Positions 1 through 24,080 of a stretch of 26,517 bases of DNA are shown here, piece by piece. The translations under genes were made by a program, and so were the position numbers. This stretch comes from a virus: positions 1 to 26,517 of the IMG/VR virus record IMGVR_UViG_3300027849_000052. One strand, written 5' to 3'. The notes under the pieces are model-generated. The model worked only from the letters and a program-made list of their open reading frames with translations, did no database searches and was not told the origin of the DNA. Within the stretch, counting starts at the first letter, position 1, and each line of letters begins with the position of its first letter.

Positions 1-689
1 TTCCCGCTTAAACCAGAATTGTATGCTGTTTCAGATGTTTTACTTAAACCGTTTAAAAACTTAGTGTCTTTAAGAAAAGGCTCTTCCATGTTATTAAAAA
101 GTACTTCTTGACCACCTACATTAAAAGCTATATTCCCCCCGTTTTGTATTTGAAATGGAGCATCTAATCTTTTGTCGCTTCTTCCATCTTTGTCTTCATC
201 AATAAATCCATATATAGTAGCAGCCTCTAAAGACCTTGCATCATCATTACCGTTTGAAAATAACCCCTCCTGCATTGTTTGAGCATATTCTAACTTACTT
301 TTTTTGTAAGATCCTAGTTGTGAAGCAAGATTTGTGAAACTATTGTTTACACTTTGCATTGCATCAACGTATTGCATGTAATCAGGATCTGTAGTATCAT
401 CAAAACTAGCTGCCATTTTAGCGGCATCAGTATATTTTGTACGTTCCCCTAGTAAAAAATTACGCATAGCTGAGGTTTCTTTAGGGCTAAAACTCGTGAA
501 GTCTATATCAGTCTTCATTTTGCTCATGTAATTGTTAACACGAGATTGAATTGCTTTATTTTTAGCAACCCTGTCGTTAGACACTTGTTTGTTTCCAAGT
601 GAAGCTATTCCTTTAGCAGCCGCAGCCCCTACATCTAAAAATTTCTTGCCAGTAAGAGCAGCTCCTTGTATTAATGCATTGTTTGCCAT
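1..689 (-). CDS. Candidate internal virion / DNA-ejection protein, 3' end cut by window
   Basis: The reading frame opens at an ATG at 689 and stays open to the left edge, giving about 229 residues with the C-terminus missing. The N-terminus (MANNALIQGAALTGKKF) is followed by an Ala-rich stretch and then a hydrophilic, probably helical region rich in Asn, Lys, Met and Ser. Residues 5-20 match a motif in the small basic protein at 22309-22740, at protein and DNA level. The gene is last in the visible structural operon, straight after a Gly/Ala/Gln-rich protein that resembles small ejection proteins. In podoviruses this place usually holds the large internal proteins released into the cell during DNA entry. 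That role is inferred from position and composition; no catalytic motif is visible. Confidence 0.6.
   Translation of the reverse strand, partial: MANNALIQGAALTGKKFLDVGAAAAKGIASLGNKQVSNDRVAKNKAIQSRVNNYMSKMKTDIDFTSFSPKETSAMRNFLLGERTKYTDAAKMAASFDDTTDPDYMQYVDAMQSVNNSFTNLASQLGSYKKSKLEYAQTMQEGLFSNGNDDARSLEAATIYGFIDEDKDGRSDKRLDAPFQIQNGGNIAFNVGGQEVLFNNMEEPFLKDTKFLNGLSKTSETAYNSGLSG
630..677 (-). repeat. Copy 1 of shared A-L-x-x-G-A-x-L-T-G-K-K-F-x-D-V motif
   Basis: This stretch encodes ALIQGAALTGKKFLDV near the N-terminus of the left-edge protein. A second copy, ALVSGASLTGKKFVDV, lies in the protein at 22309-22740. The underlying DNA (639-665 against 22405-22431) matches at 22 of 27 positions by hand alignment, so common descent is more likely than chance. 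Confidence 0.7.
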
Positions 690-9560: not shown

Positions 9561-10484
9561 TTACGATTTAATCCATTTGGATTGGTTTCTCATTACTTGC
9601 GCTATCAAATCGGATTTTAATTCAGATAAACGTATTTTTGCATTCCGTCTAGCCGCAACCATTTCTTTTTTGAATCTTTGTATAGTGTACTCTTGAGTAT
9701 TTGCTCTTACAGATAAAACAGCGTGAGTTATGTATTTGTATATTGCGTCAATAGCAAATTTGTGAACAGTCATATCTTCTTCGCATCCAAGACCGTCACT
9801 TATATATTTTAAAGTTACAATTCTACCTCTCATATCTGAGCTGAATCTAATCATACCTTTTATTTGATCAATGTAAAAAACTCCGTTAGCTTGAGACTGC
9901 TCTGGATTTAATCCAAATCTACCTCCATAAGCATACAAATTTAATAAATCAGGATTGTTTTCCCATGCGTTCCATCCGTTAGCATTACCTGATAAAGGGT
10001 ATGGGCTGTTATCTTGCCATCTTCTTAGTGTTTCAGAAGGCTGCGGGTATGCTACTTCACCGTCTTCGTCAAATATGTATTGATAATTGTTATCTTGCGC
10101 ATAAGGCAAAGGGTTACTTGTAAGGTCTGTTCTGTATATTATTCTTTCTACACCCGAAGTATCAACCCAAGATAGTTTTGTATAATTAACATAATCTTGT
10201 GGTAAAACCATATACAAACCTGGAGGACACTCTATTTCAATAGATTTTTCCTGAGGCAATGTATCAAAGCTAAATTCTTGTATTGCTCTTTGTGCATGAA
10301 AAGCTACATCTGTTCTTTTTACTTTTGGTATTATTTTTTCTTCACCTACATATATTACCATAAAGTTATTTATGATATCTGATATGCTAACAAATTGATA
10401 GCCGCCGTAATTTTCATCATTACTGTCCCATAATCCATCAGGACCTAAGTAATATTCTTCTTGTGTTTGATTTATTAAAGCCAT
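9561..10484 (-). CDS. Head-tail connector / tail tubular-type protein
   Basis: The product has 307 residues. It opens MALINQTQEEYYLGPDGLW and contains a conserved-looking core, RAIQEFSFDTLPQEKSIEIE, then PPGLYMVLPQDYVNYTKLSW at about residues 88-126. The second half includes a YIDQIKGMIRFSSDMRGR strand pair, then helices rich in Lys and Arg to the C-terminus (MVAARRNAKIRLSELKSDL). Such a profile recurs in the connector or tail-tube adaptor proteins of environmental crAss-like and T7-like podoviruses. It lies 3 nt after the 250-residue ring candidate and 5 nt before the giant tail protein, exactly where a tail-tube A-type protein is expected. The family assignment rests on pattern memory and gene order. 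Confidence 0.6.
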   Translation of the reverse strand: MALINQTQEEYYLGPDGLWDSNDENYGGYQFVSISDIINNFMVIYVGEEKIIPKVKRTDVAFHAQRAIQEFSFDTLPQEKSIEIECPPGLYMVLPQDYVNYTKLSWVDTSGVERIIYRTDLTSNPLPYAQDNNYQYIFDEDGEVAYPQPSETLRRWQDNSPYPLSGNANGWNAWENNPDLLNLYAYGGRFGLNPEQSQANGVFYIDQIKGMIRFSSDMRGRIVTLKYISDGLGCEEDMTVHKFAIDAIYKYITHAVLSVRANTQEYTIQRFKKEMVAARRNAKIRLSELKSDLIAQVMRNQSKWIKS

Positions 10485-10487
10485 CTA

Positions 10488-11240
10488 TTATTGTTTTTCT
10501 TGTTGAACAGTTTGCATTTCCATACCGTTTGCAATTTGGTACATTTGAACATCTTGAACCACTAGTCCAGCAAATGCTAATATCTTAACTACAAGTTCCG
10601 TTTCTTCAGAATCGTGTAATTCAAAATCTACAGAAGTGGTTGCATCGTATAAAGCCTCTCCGTAAACCATTTGGTAGCCCCAGGCAGCCTCGGTAGGATT
10701 TTTAATATAATTACACGTAACACCAGTAATTAACTCACCAGCGGCTCCGTATACCTTATATCCATCTGTGCTCGCTACAAACACGGGTCTTGAATTTGTT
10801 GGTTTTAAATACTCTGATTGATTAATCATTAAATATTCGTTGTAATTTATACGTTCCGCTTCTACAAGAGTTGTTGTATTAACAACGGTATTAGGCGTAG
10901 GATACAGTGATTTTGAAGTTACTGTGTTCGCATAAACTATAGTACCTAATCTATATAAATTAGCAGGAGTCTGCCAATAGAACGAAGCATTATATGTCAT
11001 TGCTGCATTCGTTTCGAATAGGTTTATTTTTTCATTAAGGATGTTAAGCATGTCAGAAAATGCGGTATCATTACCAGGCACTCTTCCATATTGGTTAATA
11101 TCATAGAAGTATTGTTCGAATATATCTAACTGCGCTTGATTAGCGAATAGATTAAATTCCTGAGGGGTAACATACCCTCGTTGCTCTTTATTAAGTATTG
11201 CTAATACTCTTTGATATACGGTATCTACGCTTACAGCCAT
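10488..11240 (-). CDS. Head-tail ring/adaptor protein
   Basis: The product has 250 residues. The N-terminal helical part includes VYQRVLAILNKEQRGYVTPQ and EFNLFANQAQLDIFEQYFYD. A beta region with RLGTIV, AERINYNEYLMIN and a GYKVYGAAGELITGV hairpin follows, then YIKNPTEAAW and a C-terminal helical segment FELHDSEETELVVKILAFAG. This arrangement (helical head, small beta barrel, 'hits E-E' helix near the end) matches ring/adaptor proteins of crAss-like phages as I remember them. A 63-nt gap with a perfect 8-bp stem-loop separates it from the upstream gene. A connector role is inferred from resemblance and from its place between capsid and tail genes. Confidence 0.6.
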   Translation of the reverse strand: MAVSVDTVYQRVLAILNKEQRGYVTPQEFNLFANQAQLDIFEQYFYDINQYGRVPGNDTAFSDMLNILNEKINLFETNAAMTYNASFYWQTPANLYRLGTIVYANTVTSKSLYPTPNTVVNTTTLVEAERINYNEYLMINQSEYLKPTNSRPVFVASTDGYKVYGAAGELITGVTCNYIKNPTEAAWGYQMVYGEALYDATTSVDFELHDSEETELVVKILAFAGLVVQDVQMYQIANGMEMQTVQQEKQ

Positions 11241-19578: not shown

Positions 19579-19853
19579 TATTTTGATCTATTTTCAGCAA
19601 ATCCACCAAAGCTAGACGTTTCAATTTCTTGCTTAGGTTTATTATTAAGGATCCTTTCCTCTTCTTCAATACGGTTAAGTATTTCGAATGCATCAAAGAT
19701 TGCTAGTTTTTTAGTAGCTGCGGCGTTTTTAAGTCTGTCTGCAGAAATGTCATCATCTGAATCGACAATGTCTTCTTTAGCTACTTTTATAAGTTCCTCA
19801 ACTGCTCTGTGCCCAGCCTGGATTATATTCCTCTTCGTTTCCTTGATGTTCAT
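19578..19853 (-). CDS. Small terminase subunit candidate
   Basis: The product has 91 residues and looks all-helical: KETKRNIIQAGHRAVEELIK, then SADRLKNAAATKKLAIFDAF and EILNRIEEEERI, with a flexible Ser/Gly/Lys C-terminus. It directly precedes terL with a one-base TAATG overlap, the usual position for the DNA-recognition subunit of the packaging motor, and it begins 56 nt inside the preceding gene. The ADRLKNAAATKK segment seems typical of a small protein placed before terminase genes in marine phages. No helix-turn-helix is certain from the sequence, so the small-terminase call depends mainly on position, length and helical character. Confidence 0.5.
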   Translation of the reverse strand: MNIKETKRNIIQAGHRAVEELIKVAKEDIVDSDDDISADRLKNAAATKKLAIFDAFEILNRIEEEERILNNKPKQEIETSSFGGFAENRSK

Positions 19854-20391
19854 ATTTGATTGTAATTGAATTGGTGGGAACGCGGTATAACCTCTGCCCT
19901 TCTATTATAAATTCATACTCCGAGTTTGGCCTAAATCCAATTAAGTCATCTTCTTTAAATTCTCCATTTGAGTATTTTACTATACCTATTAATGGTTTCT
20001 CAGAATCTAAAGAAAACATTTTTGTTTCTTTAATTGGCATAACAAATACAAAACCTTCTAAAGCTTTCCATTCGTTATTTCTTTTATAAGCGTATATTTG
20101 ATCGGGTTGAACTAAATATATATCTTCACTTAAATAGTTTTTACTATTCTTTTCTTGGCCTCTAACGTCTCTGAATCTTCTGAATATGTTATGATGCACA
20201 ATTACATCATCACCTTCTCTAAGCTCATTATATACGTTAGCAAGCGGCAAGCTTAACAACTTACCTATTCTATTACTGTATTCGTGATTTTGTAAATCTG
20301 TATTAAGTAATAATGTTTGGCCTTCTATTTTTTTAACTCCAGTCGTCCTACTGCCCTTCGGCGCAACTAAATAATTAAATACGCTGTGCAT
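19798..20391 (-). CDS. Possible two-domain Cpn10/GroES-like protein
   Basis: The product has 197 residues and is mostly beta. Residues about 5-110 read like a Cpn10-type barrel: VFNYLVAPKG near the start, an exposed loop, RIGKLLSLP, then ELREGDDVIVHHNIFRRF and a final DQIYAYK strand. Residues about 111-180 seem to repeat the order: GFVFVMPIKETK, PLIGIVKYS, EFKEDDLIGFRP, RLYRVPTNSI. Two fused barrels would resemble the chloroplast Cpn20 co-chaperonin. The gene follows the previous stop with no gap and overlaps the small-terminase candidate by 56 nt. A phage GroEL/GroES pair lies 4 kb upstream, making a co-chaperonin role plausible. Similarity to any single GroES is weak, so other beta-barrel proteins are possible. 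Confidence 0.4.
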   Translation of the reverse strand: MHSVFNYLVAPKGSRTTGVKKIEGQTLLLNTDLQNHEYSNRIGKLLSLPLANVYNELREGDDVIVHHNIFRRFRDVRGQEKNSKNYLSEDIYLVQPDQIYAYKRNNEWKALEGFVFVMPIKETKMFSLDSEKPLIGIVKYSNGEFKEDDLIGFRPNSEYEFIIEGQRLYRVPTNSITIKYEHQGNEEEYNPGWAQSS

Positions 20392-20616: not shown

Positions 20617-20869
20617 CTGAAATTTCTCCTGTTTGTAAGTCGATATTAACAGATCCATGTTCTTTTTCTAACTCCGCTTGCAAGTCTGATAACTCTTTAA
20701 CAATTCCTTGTAATTGAGTAATCAATCCTGCTTTGTGTCCTTCTAGTCCACCAATTTGCATTTGGATTTGATTCTGTTTATTAACAGTATCTTGTAATCC
20801 TTTTAATTGATCTTTTGAAATTGACTTTACTTCTTTTGCTTCTACGTTTAATGTTTTTACTTCACTCAT
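20597..20869 (-). CDS. Small coiled-coil phage protein
   Basis: The product has 90 residues. Residues about 15-70 form a heptad-like helix (LKGLQDTVNKQNQIQMQIGG, then GLITQLQGIVKELSDLQAEL) and the end reads EKEHGSVNIDLQTGEIS, a combination I associate with a short conserved protein found in many marine phages. A coiled-coil oligomer is likely, with no enzymatic motif. The gene starts 11 nt after the 52-residue gene's stop and overlaps the next gene. Its role is unknown; coiled-coil proteins at this place could be assembly or packaging accessories. Confidence 0.6.
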   Translation of the reverse strand: MSEVKTLNVEAKEVKSISKDQLKGLQDTVNKQNQIQMQIGGLEGHKAGLITQLQGIVKELSDLQAELEKEHGSVNIDLQTGEISDVPTND

Positions 20870-20880
20870 GTTGATTAAAT

Positions 20881-21039
20881 TTAATTGTTATTTGGTTTTT
20901 GTTTATAAGGAAATGCTTTATTTAACATTTCTTTTCTGTTTTCGCAATTGCATTTGCCAGGTAGTTTATCTACTAGCTTTTTTATTCCAGTTGCTTTGGT
21001 TATTTTTTCTATGGTGTCTCCTAGTCCTTTTGATTCCAT
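20881..21039 (-). CDS. Short 52-residue phage protein with CxC motif
   Basis: The reading frame begins ATG at 21039 and ends TAA at 20881-20883, encoding 52 residues: MESKGLGDTIEKITKATGIK, then KLVDKLPGKCNCENRKEMLN and a Lys/Pro/Asn-rich end. The start overlaps the preceding gene's stop in a TAATG junction. The arrangement GLGDTIEKxTKATGIKKxVDK, then a CxC pair and RKExLNKxFPYK, looks like a small conserved phage family that I have seen in environmental phages without assigned function. Evidence for a real gene is the exact coupling, its tidy fit between neighbours and the absence of any other explanation for the 169-nt gap. The longer overlapping frame on the same strand at 20966-21157 is rejected. 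Confidence 0.7.
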   Translation of the reverse strand: MESKGLGDTIEKITKATGIKKLVDKLPGKCNCENRKEMLNKAFPYKQKPNNN

Positions 21040-21293
21040 TAGCACTTCCAGTTTCTTCTAGCGATATCATTCGGGCAATCTCCATTTTTATCTGGATCTT
21101 TACACTTTTTAATACCTGCAGATCTAGCACAATAAGATTTCTTTCTTGAGCCTCCACCTGGCTGAGGTGCTTTTAGATTACCGCCAGTTTTATTATTATA
21201 TGTTTTCCTTTCAGCTGCACTCATACCCGCTGTATGGGGTTTTGTTCTTTTAGCTGGGCTAGTTAAGCAGGAGCCTTTCATTTTGTATGCCAT
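21039..21293 (-). CDS. Basic cysteine-containing small protein (DUF6321-like), SPAK motif
   Basis: The product has 84 residues, very basic, opening MAYKMKGSCLTSPAKRTKPH. A conserved-looking core follows: SAAERKTYNNKTGGNLKAPQ, then SRKKSYCARSAGIKKCKDPD, ending RRNWKC. The E-R-K-x-Y-x-x-x-T-G-x-N-L-K and SYCARSAG signatures resemble the phage family I know as DUF6321; the name is from memory. Five cysteines are present, one at the C-terminal end. It carries one SPAK motif at residues 12-15, shared with its upstream neighbours. It overlaps both adjacent genes by one base in TAATG junctions. A nucleic-acid-binding role is possible from charge but unproven. Confidence 0.65.
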   Translation of the reverse strand: MAYKMKGSCLTSPAKRTKPHTAGMSAAERKTYNNKTGGNLKAPQPGGGSRKKSYCARSAGIKKCKDPDKNGDCPNDIARRNWKC

Positions 21294-22303
21294 TATTTAT
21301 ACAAAGGTTTTTTCATCCCGTATCCTCTTTTCTTCATAGGGGATTTAGTTTTTAATGCTAAGGTAGGTATTTCCTCATTACCTAGCCCTGAGCTTTTTAT
21401 TCCAGCTGGAGTAAGTGTGCTAACCGCTTTTACTTTAGGTCTTGGTTTTTTTATACCATCCTCTTCAATAATTGTCTTTTGTCCAGCGTAAGTTTTAGAT
21501 GCATCCGGTAATTCCATATCTCTAGAAGCACTGTCAAAAGTCCCGCTTTTCCCCAAAGGATCTGAACTCATTTCAACTTGTCTTGTTCTAGCTGTCATGT
21601 TTTTATCGAAAGCATTAAGCTCTGCTGAGTTTTCTTCAACCTTAGCTTTTTTTCTAGCTGCTTTAACTACTTCTCTACGAGCTTTACCTTTAAGTTTAGT
21701 TGTTTCTTGAAAATTACCATCCTCATCTATTCTCCCACCACCGCTAGCTGCTAATTTAGCTGCTTTTATTTTAGATTGACGAACATCTTTTCCAGACTTT
21801 TTAATTGATCTGCTTTGTTGTCTAACTCTCCAAGGTGACATAGCGTCATTTTTATCCCTAGTTTGAGTAGGCGTAAACTCGTTTGTGTCTGTAGTTGTAC
21901 CCGGTATTACTGTGTCTGGCTCGCTTTCCCCAGTGTCTACCTGATCCCTTGCTCCGTCTGGATTCTTTTTTCTAAAAGCTTTAGCTTCTGTTATTTTTTC
22001 CTCAGACATACCCTCTGCTCTTAAATCATCCCAGGTTTTATTTCTAGTTATTTTTTTACCTTCAACAATCTGGTCTCCAGTTGAGCTTGATTCTAATACA
22101 TTAACACCTACTTGTTTTAAAGGAGATCGCTTAGCGTATCCTCTTTTTTTACTCGGTGATGGAATGTCTTTAGTCTGATTATCCCCGTAAACGCCAGCTG
22201 GGCCAACGCCTAATAAAGGTTCTGTTACACCTTTCTTTTGATTAAATAAACCTGCGTTTATCCTTGCCGTAATTGGCGTGTTCTTTTTTCCTTTTGTTCC
22301 CAT
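21293..22303 (-). CDS. Large basic disordered protein with repeated SPxKKRGY motifs
   Basis: The product has 336 residues, dominated by Lys, Arg, Ser, Thr, Asp and Gly, with almost no hydrophobic core. SPxK/R motifs occur at residues 49-52 (SPSKKRGYAK), 60-63 (SPLK), 156-159 (SPWRVRQQSR) and 321-324 (SPMKKRGYGMKKPLYK). The first and last share the longer SPxKKRGY form and bracket the chain. A helical basic middle (KLKGKARREVVKAARKKAKV) could contact DNA. It overlaps the next gene by one base (TAATG). No enzyme family is recognised. It could be a packaged DNA-associated protein, an ejected virion protein or a maturation-protease substrate; the sequence alone does not choose. Confidence 0.6.
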   Translation of the reverse strand: MGTKGKKNTPITARINAGLFNQKKGVTEPLLGVGPAGVYGDNQTKDIPSPSKKRGYAKRSPLKQVGVNVLESSSTGDQIVEGKKITRNKTWDDLRAEGMSEEKITEAKAFRKKNPDGARDQVDTGESEPDTVIPGTTTDTNEFTPTQTRDKNDAMSPWRVRQQSRSIKKSGKDVRQSKIKAAKLAASGGGRIDEDGNFQETTKLKGKARREVVKAARKKAKVEENSAELNAFDKNMTARTRQVEMSSDPLGKSGTFDSASRDMELPDASKTYAGQKTIIEEDGIKKPRPKVKAVSTLTPAGIKSSGLGNEEIPTLALKTKSPMKKRGYGMKKPLYK

Positions 22304-22308
22304 TATAA

Positions 22309-22740
22309 TTAGTTGTTAGTTTTATTTTTATCTATGCTTAAGTCAGCCGATATTGGCTCTTTTTTTTCTTCAAAAACTTTACCTACTTCAGCGGCTACGT
22401 CAACAAATTTTTTACCAGTTAGACTAGCTCCGGAAACTAACGCTTCATTTATTTTAAGGGGAGATTTTGATTTGCTTGTTATAGGATTACTTTTAGCGGG
22501 ACTTGCCATATCACCTCCATATCCATCTTGAAAATAAGATTCACCTCCGTAGAAGTTTTTCTTTTTAACAGGTGATCCGCTTCTTTTTGCAAAAGCTTCT
22601 TTAGCTTGACTTAAAGATACGTCTTCACCACCAACACCTTGTCTTGGTCCTGGATCAGATTTGTCTTGAAACCCACTAGCGTTTTGCTTCGATTCAATTC
22701 TATTGAATTTTTTAGCTTGTCCTCTATATGTAATTGCCAT
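22309..22740 (-). CDS. Basic small protein with three SPxK motifs and GAxLTGKKF motif
   Basis: The product has 143 residues, basic and Gly/Ser/Lys-rich, with SPxK motifs at residues 56-59 (SPVKKKNF), 80-83 (SPAK) and 93-96 (SPLK). Immediately after the third comes ALVSGASLTGKKFVDV (100-115), nearly the same as residues 5-20 of the left-edge ejection-protein candidate. The tail is short and charged. The gene lies 2 nt after the metallopeptidase-like gene and 5 nt before the large basic protein, so they are expressed together. The shared motif and the SPxK repeats suggest common handling, for example incorporation into the capsid or proteolytic processing. This is inference; no known domain is recognised. 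Confidence 0.6.
   Translation of the reverse strand: MAITYRGQAKKFNRIESKQNASGFQDKSDPGPRQGVGGEDVSLSQAKEAFAKRSGSPVKKKNFYGGESYFQDGYGGDMASPAKSNPITSKSKSPLKINEALVSGASLTGKKFVDVAAEVGKVFEEKKEPISADLSIDKNKTNN
22396..22443 (-). repeat. Copy 2 of shared A-L-x-x-G-A-x-L-T-G-K-K-F-x-D-V motif
   Basis: This encodes ALVSGASLTGKKFVDV in the 143-residue basic protein, directly after an SPLK motif. It is the partner of the copy at 630-677 in the left-edge protein, 22 kb away. Confidence 0.7.
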
Positions 22741-22742
22741 AA

Positions 22743-23096
22743 TTATGATTGTTTATATGCTTCGTTTTCCCACTCAAAATCAGGATGACCTTCATTCATA
22801 GTAGCTCTTTTATATACCCGTGCAGGACTTCTTGTATCTTTTTTCCAAGTAACTGTTTCTGCAGAGTACTGTAATCTTCCTTGAGCTAATTGATCTAAGT
22901 GCACTTTTTCGTGAGCGACAGCGTCTTCTATTTTCTTGTCAGACAATTTAGAGTCTACAAAAATAGTACCGTCTCTATTAGCTTCAGCCTCAACTCCATC
23001 TTCTAAATCATCTTTTTTGATAACGGGAGTACCGAACTCAGAAGTTTTTTCGTGAATTCCAAAAATGTCAGCATGGGGTTTTAGCTTGAATGCCAT
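22743..23096 (-). CDS. Minimal HExxH metallopeptidase-like protein
   Basis: The product has 117 residues. DAVAHEKVHLDQLAQGRLQY (58-77) contains HExxH at residues 62-66, the zinc-binding and catalytic motif of zincin peptidases. A later WENEAYKQ at about 109-116 offers a glutamate (E110 or E112) as third zinc ligand in the style of minigluzincins. An N-terminal beta part (PVIKKDD, NRDGTIFVDSKLS) precedes the helix, as in those small enzymes. It also contains one SPAR motif (90-93), like its neighbours. The gene overlaps none but is spaced 1 nt and 2 nt from the two adjacent SPxK genes. Activity and substrates are inferred: it may cleave the neighbouring proteins, or be a degenerate structural relative. 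Confidence 0.6.
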   Translation of the reverse strand: MAFKLKPHADIFGIHEKTSEFGTPVIKKDDLEDGVEAEANRDGTIFVDSKLSDKKIEDAVAHEKVHLDQLAQGRLQYSAETVTWKKDTRSPARVYKRATMNEGHPDFEWENEAYKQS

Positions 23097-23097
23097 A

Positions 23098-23364
23098 TTA
23101 TCTATATCCTTTTTTAGAATCGTGTTGAGCGTTTTCAGCGTAATTCTTTCTAGCTTTTGCTGAAAGGTTTTGATTACTAGCTTCTTTAATATCGTACTTC
23201 ATACCATTCTTTTTAGCTGGCGACTTAGCCGCAATTGCATCTACAATTTGCTTTGGTAAGTTTTTCTTTTGGCTAGCTGTTTGCTTAGCTGGAGAGCTAA
23301 TGCCAGCTCCTTTGTTTGCTCCAATTTTATTTGGCCCAATACCTTTAAATCCTGAATATCCCAT
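23098..23364 (-). CDS. Basic small protein with two SPAK motifs
   Basis: The product has 88 residues, Lys/Ala/Gly/Asn-rich and probably disordered. It opens MGYSGFKGIGPNKIGANKGA and carries SPAK at residues 24-27 and 48-51 (AAKSPAKKNGMKYDIKEA). The C-terminal third reads LSAKARKNYAENAQHDSKKG. It is first of the run of SPxK proteins, 21 nt after the winged-helix candidate and one base before the peptidase-like gene. No family is recognised. The charge suggests nucleic-acid contact or packing inside the virion, but that is inference from composition. Confidence 0.55.
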   Translation of the reverse strand: MGYSGFKGIGPNKIGANKGAGISSPAKQTASQKKNLPKQIVDAIAAKSPAKKNGMKYDIKEASNQNLSAKARKNYAENAQHDSKKGYR

Positions 23365-23385: not shown

Positions 23386-23826
23386 TTATCTTTCTTTATC
23401 TTTTATCATATCGTCAATAGCTTTATTATAAACTTTGTCTGTATATGTTTTGTTTTTATAAAACTTACTTCTTTCTGATGTAGGTAAGTCTTCTTCTGCT
23501 AATAGTATTCTATAAATTCTATTTATTAAACTTTTACATCTCAATGAAGTCTTATAAACATTAAACTTTTTAGTTGTCCTGTTTCTTTTACTCCAAACAT
23601 CAATCCACCCAGCACTCCTTAATCGTTCCCATCTAGCTTTATCCCAGGAGTATGTGTAAACACCTTCTATGAAATCATTACGTGTAAAATGCTTTTTACA
23701 ATCTAAATAGATCAACAACTCAAGGTCAGCATCTAAGATGTCATAAGTCTTACAGGCCCATTTTCTAACAAGCCTGTAATACTTAAATAAATTTAATTCC
23801 CTTAAGTCTTTCGACGATAGTCTCAT
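23386..23826 (-). CDS. Possible winged-helix DNA-binding protein
   Basis: The product has 146 residues, strongly basic and helical. Residues about 25-100 (LELLIYLDCKKHFTRNDFIE, then WDKARWERLRSAGWIDVWSK and RTTKKFNVYKTSLRCKSLIN) show helices followed by a basic two-strand hairpin, the usual order of a MarR-type winged helix, with RNRTTKK as the wing. The end is a charged helix with EEDLPTSERSKF. Its ATG overlaps the GroES stop in an ATGA junction, so it is translated with the chaperonin genes. It may be a late-gene regulator or a small packaging/DNA-binding protein. The fold call is from pattern only. Confidence 0.45.
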   Translation of the reverse strand: MRLSSKDLRELNLFKYYRLVRKWACKTYDILDADLELLIYLDCKKHFTRNDFIEGVYTYSWDKARWERLRSAGWIDVWSKRNRTTKKFNVYKTSLRCKSLINRIYRILLAEEDLPTSERSKFYKNKTYTDKVYNKAIDDMIKDKER

Positions 23827-24080
23827 TCAACTAATACAACATCGTTAATTGTTATAACATAATACATTTTGTCATTCCATTGAATTCCATGACCAGCATG
23901 CTTGTCGTATCTTATAACACTACCTTCTTTTATATAATCAATTTTATCTCCTACACTTATAACATTAGCCTTTAAGTACCTAATGTCGGTGTTTTGCGTT
24001 TCTGTTATCTCAAGTCCTCCTACTGTCTTCGGAGCCTCTTTTATTTTATCTATTACGATGTAATAATTAATTGCTTTCAA
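23823..24080 (-). CDS. groES: Phage GroES-like co-chaperonin
   Basis: The product has 85 residues against about 97 for bacterial GroES. MKAINYYIVIDKIKEAPKTV matches the first strand (N-x-x-V-I-V-x-x-I/K), GGLEITETQN takes the place of the mobile loop whose hydrophobic triplet docks on GroEL, KANVISVGDKI matches the G-x-V-x-x-V-G segment, IKEGSVIRYDKHAG matches the K-x-G-D-x-V-x-F-x-x-Y-x-G segment and YYVITINDVVLV ends the barrel. The roof loop is reduced. The gene starts 14 nt inside the 3' end of groEL and overlaps the next gene by 4 nt, so it is translationally coupled. It probably caps the phage GroEL, as T4 gp31 caps the host chaperonin. Confidence 0.8.
   Translation of the reverse strand: MKAINYYIVIDKIKEAPKTVGGLEITETQNTDIRYLKANVISVGDKIDYIKEGSVIRYDKHAGHGIQWNDKMYYVITINDVVLVE

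Follow-up and report, generated by a model that had tools for sequence, protein, structure and literature searches.

A conserved Ser-Pro-x-Lys motif shared by small late proteins around a minimal zincin-like protein in a phage clade

The DNA studied here, which we call the window, is a 26.5-kb viral fragment from IMG/VR (record IMGVR_UViG_3300027849_000052, positions 1 to 26,517). It contains a cassette of five consecutive genes encoding proteins of 88, 117 (HEx117), 143 (SP143), 336 (SP336) and 84 residues (Table 1), and each of these proteins carries a Ser-Pro-x-Lys/Arg motif, here written SPx[KR] or SPxK. An earlier note on this DNA had counted eleven such motifs (2, 1, 3, 4 and 1, respectively) in tightly spaced genes. 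All the open reading frames (ORFs) and motifs were confirmed, and the intergenic gaps are 1, 2, 5 and -1 nt. Shuffling of the five proteins gave a mean of 0.64 motifs and a maximum of 5, and none of 20,000 shuffles reached 11. The rest of the window has a single SPx[KR] against 1.8 expected. This is the SPGK in TerL, the only motif in the other large ORFs, so the note was also right that no other structural protein shows a comparable density. Four of the five cassette proteins are net basic (+7 to +25) and HEx117 is acidic (-5). The proteins are linked by the motif, not by overall homology. Two extended SPxKKRGY motifs had been described as bracketing the 336-residue protein; they do flank its middle part (SPSKKRGY at residue 49 and SPMKKRGY at residue 321), not its extreme ends.

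Table 1. Positions of the cassette genes, their motifs and related elements (window coordinates unless another sequence is named).
Feature	Position	Strand	Description	Basis
84-aa protein	21039..21293	minus	1 SPx[KR]; DUF6321 (PF19846) module	Pfam
SP336 (336 aa)	21293..22303	minus	basic, net +25; 4 SPx[KR]	
SP143 (143 aa)	22309..22740	minus	3 SPxK	
SP143 residues 93-120, SPLKINEALVSGASLTGKKFVDVAAEVG	22381..22464	minus	SPxK and peptide common to the N-terminus of the large late protein	
HEx117 (117 aa)	22743..23096	minus	minimal zincin-like metallopeptidase (predicted); 1 SPxR	homologues, AlphaFold2 model, structure matches
SPAR of HEx117, residues 90-93	22818..22829	minus	loop of predicted beta-hairpin	
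HEKVH (HExxH) of HEx117, residues 62-66	22899..22913	minus	predicted helix 53-71	
88-aa basic protein	23098..23364	minus	net +13; 2 SPxK	
Large late protein, N-terminal 28 residues, MANNALIQGAALTGKKFLDVGAAAAKGI	606..689	minus	ORF 3-689, cut by the left edge of the window	
Second SPxK cluster, G001	28352-29805		region outside the window	
Second SPxK cluster, G003	30869-31441		region outside the window	
Second SPxK cluster, G004	35333-37047		region outside the window	

A search of viral contigs with the 117-residue family yielded 80 related loci. All the related sequences are metagenomic contigs, many of them incomplete, and a phage described below as lacking the zincin is one in which none was seen. 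Expected motif counts were derived from composition, with residues assumed independent. Within three genes before and four genes after the zincin gene, these loci contain 734 SPx[KR] against 51.7 expected; their remaining genes contain 60 against 47.4. Because many loci are near-copies, the count was repeated on 379 distinct proteins, where 527 motifs were found against 35.9 expected (ratio 14.7). The same proteins contain 38 TPx[KR] against 33.2 expected (1.1-fold) and 27 APx[KR] against 46.5. The motif is Ser-specific, and Thr is no substitute. From 394 distinct contexts it was refined to S-P-[A 46%, F 15%, L 14%, S 9%, M 7%]-[K 93%]-[K/Q/M/I/V]; the residue after Pro is A, F, L, S or M in about 91% and K or R in at most about 3%.

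The cassette is a real and conserved set, with the same pattern around the zincin gene in the 80 related loci. The earlier note had named in advance two observations that would count, namely that homologues keep the motif and that SPxK proteins co-occur with the HExxH gene in related phages. Both were made: the co-occurrence is seen in the 80 other loci, SP is nearly invariant in the 117-residue family, and SPxK sites are kept elsewhere in families that are otherwise merely 30-60% identical. Many of the motifs lie 7-12 residues from a protein terminus. Near-complete relatives have another SPxK cluster next to endolysin/amidase-type genes, at the distal end of the late region (Table 1). In a relative without the zincin (G006), one SPxK motif was found in 61 genes. 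A literature search on SPxK in phages returned nothing relevant.

The signature from which HEx117 had been called peptidase-like, an HExxH plus a late Glu, is present (HEKVH, and WENEAY at residues 109-114). HExxH is found in 81/81 close homologues and is lost in L034 (EENKH, the first His gone) and G009 (EELKH); E102, E110 and E112, downstream candidates for the third zinc ligand, are invariant in the alignment of homologues. The AlphaFold2 model of HEx117 has a predicted local distance difference test (pLDDT) score of 83.8. A Foldseek search of the PDB with this model gave no match with E below 0.4. When the Foldseek candidates were realigned with VIA-align, zincins occupied nearly all of the first 19 rows. 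The best row was PprI/IrrE (8sln; Z 6.2, 3.1 Å over 82 residues), and others were an Rv2017-type regulator (5.6), Wss1 (4.1), BepA (4.0), abylysin (3.9) and selecase (3.5). Viral models named SprT-like in BFVD match at E 6.5e-4. Among curated Pfam families HEx117 stays below the cut-off (PF20573, 14.3 bits against 27), and its PHROG match is a family of unknown function (phrog_10499, E 2.4e-5). Because the list of structure matches is consistent and HExxH is present, HEx117 models as a small SprT/IrrE-like metallopeptidase of the zincin fold, with Z values that are modest.

The model shares with SprT-like, IrrE-ImmA and minigluzincin proteins the HExxH helix, a small beta-sheet and a C-terminal helix with Glu. 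It differs from them in that the Pfam models score below their cut-offs and in that the SP-bearing hairpin loop is peculiar to this clade. Distant homologues have a shorter loop without SP (WKGKKYPR in G018 and G019), so the SPAR of HEx117 looks like an insertion. A distant SprT-like homologue is also encoded by Methylophilales phage Melnitz, without SPxK nearby. One further relative, G061, has an in-frame TAA in its zincin homologue (20648-21022) and stops in TerL as well, due to decay or sequencing errors.

The other cassette proteins combine the motif with quite different bodies. The 88-residue protein has an N-terminal "FKGIGPNKIG...SPAK" tag and a "NLPKQIVDAIAAKSPAKK" helix-plus-tag unit. 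In relatives, the gene in this slot encodes 64-328 residues with 1-5 SPxK, often with no other recognisable similarity, and the KALxGKQ-SPAK unit has no relative among 84,980 bacterial and archaeal genomes. In SP336, about 65 N-terminal and about 12 C-terminal residues are conserved, and the lysine-rich region between them varies; in its family (30-37% identity to the window copy), every copy keeps S49-P50-K52 and S60-P61-K63. We also considered that its C-terminal tail (SPLKMKYFKK) mimics the scaffold tail SKLKIKSFKHIK. This idea was dropped because roughly half of all basic tails reach an equal score. Phage records contain no homologue of the 336-residue protein, of the tagged protein of L226 or of the 398-residue protein of L047.

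The 84-residue protein is a DUF6321 protein (41.6 bits against a Pfam gathering cut-off of 28.5) and carries its SPAK at residues 12-15, in a predicted disordered N-terminal tail before the module. In its AlphaFold2 model, pLDDT is below 50 at residues 1-13 and 15-22 and about 60-76 elsewhere. A fold search with DUF6321 gave no match, an NCBIfam search gave nothing informative, and nothing relevant on DUF6321 or DUF5872 was found in the literature. The module occurs in many cyanophages and Pelagibacter phages.

Within the clade, a few leaders (PITxR..EPLLNVG, MRTKGIGPQGLGxKGNNGYHIGSPAK and MAYxQxSPFKK) are combined with small C-terminal modules, and the second of them is fused to differing modules in different phages. 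SPx[KR] stands N-terminal to five such modules in 61/79 non-redundant proteins, against about 5 expected. By module, these are 13/15 for DACY..KCRK (0.6 motifs expected), 7/8 for CW..GSC (0.3), 15/21 for WFKEEW (0.5), 3/4 for SFACRFAG (0.2) and 23/31 for DUF6321, for which the expectation is the highest of the five (3.5). In L211 the modules are in tandem, in the order SPILK, CW module, SPAKK, DUF6321. SPxK thus behaves as a transferable tag between unrelated modules. Some tagged proteins (L391 5821-6297, L409 1042-1383, L411 3400-3744 and L417 1125-1469) have between two SPxK a DLSGDGKVTxKDVLIGRGVI segment that resembles an EF-hand or dockerin loop.

The small modules are older and more widespread than the SPxK tag. 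Cyanophages and roseophages have the same repertoire, DUF6321 and its companions, also beside terminase genes, but those modules lack the tag or are joined in a single protein, whereas in this clade they are mostly single and stand behind SPxK. In P-SSM2, PSSM2_123 (L308), encoded between gp15 and gp16 (the small terminase gene), has several modules in one chain without SPxK; in Roseobacter phage CRP-7 (L307), gp63-65 are modules just upstream of TerL, again without SPxK. It was observed separately that the DUF6321, DACY..KCRK, CW..C and WF.E.W modules adjoin terminase genes in three unrelated groups, T4-like cyanophage, roseophage and flavophage, and that the terminase-adjacent Cys modules are fused in P-SSM2 and separate in the roseophage and flavophage groups.

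A second line of evidence connects a large late protein with the cassette. The ORF of this protein, which is cut by the left edge of the window, starts with 28 residues, MANNALIQGAALTGKKFLDVGAAAAKG, that match the C-terminal part of SP143, SPLKINEALVSGASLTGKKFVDVAAEVG, and the shared peptide SPLKINEALVxGAxLTGKKFVDVG of SP143 is homologous to the N-terminus of the large late protein. A profile of the cassette peptide finds large-protein N-termini in other genomes (independent E-values 1e-10 to 1e-3). Conversely, single-genome searches with the large late protein find a short second ORF, the cassette copy, in a dozen contigs (E 6e-6 to 4e-3). The copies are more similar within a genome than between genomes (65.5 vs 58.4; p 0.0006, 20 genomes), also after removal of near-copies (67.2 vs 61.4; permutation p 0.014, 14 non-redundant genomes); the cassette and late-protein copies co-vary by genome. 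The large late protein of G009 begins with MENSPIKQQAALIRGAG, in which SPxK immediately precedes the shared peptide; its counterpart in the G009 cassette has the sequence SPIKQADANLVHGAG. A neighbouring late protein of 210 residues has SPxK at its N-terminus in 3/38 distinct sequences, from phages in which no zincin was detected.

The large late protein is encoded in the block of virion genes, at the position of phi38:1 gp100 and elemo gp71. Its sole database hint is a match of the G009 homologue to phrog_16990 (virion structural protein, E 0.004), and the G009 protein has no homologue in phage records. From the place of its gene in the structural block and from this one weak PHROG match, we infer that the large late protein probably belongs to the virus particle.

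Our preferred, still tentative, explanation, to which we give somewhat less than an even chance, is that SPxK acts as a docking tag through which cargo is loaded into the virion, by analogy with the T4 capsid-targeting sequence. It builds on the observed enrichment, conservation and Ser specificity of the motif, its movement between modules, the late-protein peptide and the predicted unstructured tail of the 84-residue protein. The tag would mark a group of small late proteins, most of them rich in lysine and among them the minimal zincin, DUF6321 and other small Cys modules, and would dock them onto a common partner in the assembling particle. The tagged proteins would then enter the virion together with the large late proteins, which are probably ejection proteins, or in a similar way to them, and might be delivered into the next host. 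A bolder version, in which SPxK is a cargo-loading code and any small domain that follows it is packaged along with the ejection apparatus and reaches the host as one of several swappable effectors, the metallopeptidase included, seems to us doubtful.

T4 offers the closest model. Its internal proteins form a highly diverse set that has in common only the capsid-targeting sequence, a peptide that directs them into the head (PMC3012670). The likeness to IPI, IPII, IPIII and Alt lies in varied, host-adapted small proteins with one short common peptide, and here too a short peptide is common to otherwise unrelated small late proteins (61/79, five modules). The SPxK sequence is unrelated to that of T4, several copies may occur per protein, no T4-type assembly core is present, and packaging is putative. 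The ejection sets of P22 (gp7/16/20) and SPN3US are also comparable: the large late protein is encoded where such proteins lie, and the tagged proteins would accompany it in packing and delivery. Unlike those sets, it is identified by gene order and the PHROG match, and no sequence homology to them was found.

Several observations weigh against the docking tag. The packaging of the tagged proteins, the one receptor that reads the tag and the cargo role are steps that we infer; the virion location of the cassette proteins is putative, and the receptor is postulated. The T4 targeting sequence is N-terminal only, whereas internal and C-terminal copies of SPxK are common, and the motif of HEx117 lies in a folded loop of the model, not in a tail. 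With iterated profiles and hhalign, no significant homology was seen between the large late protein and phi38:1 gp100, elemo gp71 or the positional counterpart in MW202828. The tag is also dispensable, since G006, a phage without tags, retains the IGPQGLG leader, there without SPxK, and some of the modules.

The earlier note had proposed a protease-substrate unit, in which SPxK would be a processing site cut by HEx117 or another protease, with leaders removed or modules separated during maturation. The position of SPxK N-terminal to folded modules, and between the tandem modules of L211, agrees with this, as does the zincin in the same cassette in 80 other loci. A distance of 7-12 residues from the terminus would fit the removal of short leaders, not cutting into the products, and T4 internal proteins are a precedent in that they combine targeting with maturation cleavage. 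The idea is nevertheless weakened, because G009 has a zincin without HExxH (EELKH) and its neighbours keep SPxK, while the zincins of G011, G018, G019 and G028 retain HExxH but carry no SPxK, which is also scarce or absent elsewhere in these phages. L034 (EENKH) does not separate the ideas, since its fragment shows no other SPxK. Moreover, HEx117 would cut the SP motif within its own sequence, and L331 and L314, contigs that may be incomplete, have SPxK at a late-protein N-terminus without a detectable zincin. As stated, the proposal appears unlikely. Binding of a phage or host factor in the cytoplasm during late infection, for instance the phage chaperonin or a host regulator, with the proteins left unpackaged, would suit the place of the cassette after the GroEL/GroES genes and that of the second cluster of relatives next to lysis-type genes. 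However, MW202828 has GroEL/GroES without SPxK, the chaperonin phage G005 has few SPxK, and the late-protein peptide would be left unexplained unless the large late protein is a client of the same factor. We consider this unlikely, too.

The other proposal of the earlier note was that these are virion or intracellular DNA-binding proteins, in which SPxK would contact the minor groove like histone SPKK and help condense the genome. As in H1 and in sea-urchin and hydrozoan sperm H2B, Ser-Pro is followed by a basic residue and repeated in lysine-rich proteins. Four of the five cassette proteins are basic, AKSPAKK-type sequences resemble histone tails (SPAKK is among the variants given for Hydractinia spH2B; PMC9903204), and T4 internal proteins contact DNA via lysines (PMC3012670). 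The histone unit, however, is SP(K/R)(K/R) (PMC9903204), a consensus unmatched here: the residue after Pro is hydrophobic or small, Thr is not accepted in place of Ser, and an acidic folded protein, HEx117, carries the motif in a loop. Histone-like binding is weakened for these reasons and is not supported by the counts given above, and it leaves the shared ALIxGA..KKFxDVG peptide unexplained, which makes it quite improbable. That the motif has no function and is a low-complexity repeat, spread by recombination among the fast-evolving genes of one clade, would accord with the rapid evolution of the protein bodies and the loss of the tag in sister lineages. Yet the motif is the best-conserved part of the diverged proteins, is Ser-specific and has fixed places across loci; we hold this explanation very improbable. 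Taken together, the evidence points more to a docking or cargo tag than to a protease-substrate unit or histone-like binding.

The window has genes for GroEL, GroES and TerL and a structural set that includes a portal as well as scaffold-like and major-capsid-type proteins. The named phages closest to it are Flavobacteriia podoviruses, namely MW202828 (63% TerL identity), the Flavobacterium elemo phages (45%) and Cellulophaga phi38:1/Calle, so its source is probably a marine Bacteroidota phage. A close relative of its capsid protein is encoded in hundreds of IMG/VR stretches. One GroES (23823-24080) adjoins GroEL, and a second GroES-like protein (19798-20391; phrog_13932, E 2.5e-17) lies just upstream of the small ORF before TerL. 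Two adjacent small proteins in the structural block (1728-2069 and 2073-2321) have a common YRxQTGxxLxxSxxCxTCST start and are probably tandem paralogues. In Cellulophaga phi38:1, gp69 and gp80 (L083 2594-2935 and 7493-7798) are small lysine-rich late proteins annotated as structural, which we count in favour of the docking tag, and gp80-like proteins are found in this clade as well (L272 679-915, G002 10398-10643).

The SPxK tag system of this mostly marine phage clade is real and conserved, and it appears not to have been described before. The small, fast-evolving proteins of uncultured phages mostly go unannotated for want of homologues, and here one short motif ties dozens of them together across more than 80 phage loci. 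A testable link is also made between the virion and the small Cys modules that lie beside terminase genes in unrelated marine phages. If the tag does load cargo into virions, it would provide a sequence rule to predict which proteins are packaged or injected in a marine phage group that is among the more abundant, and possibly a handle for loading chosen proteins into a phage particle.

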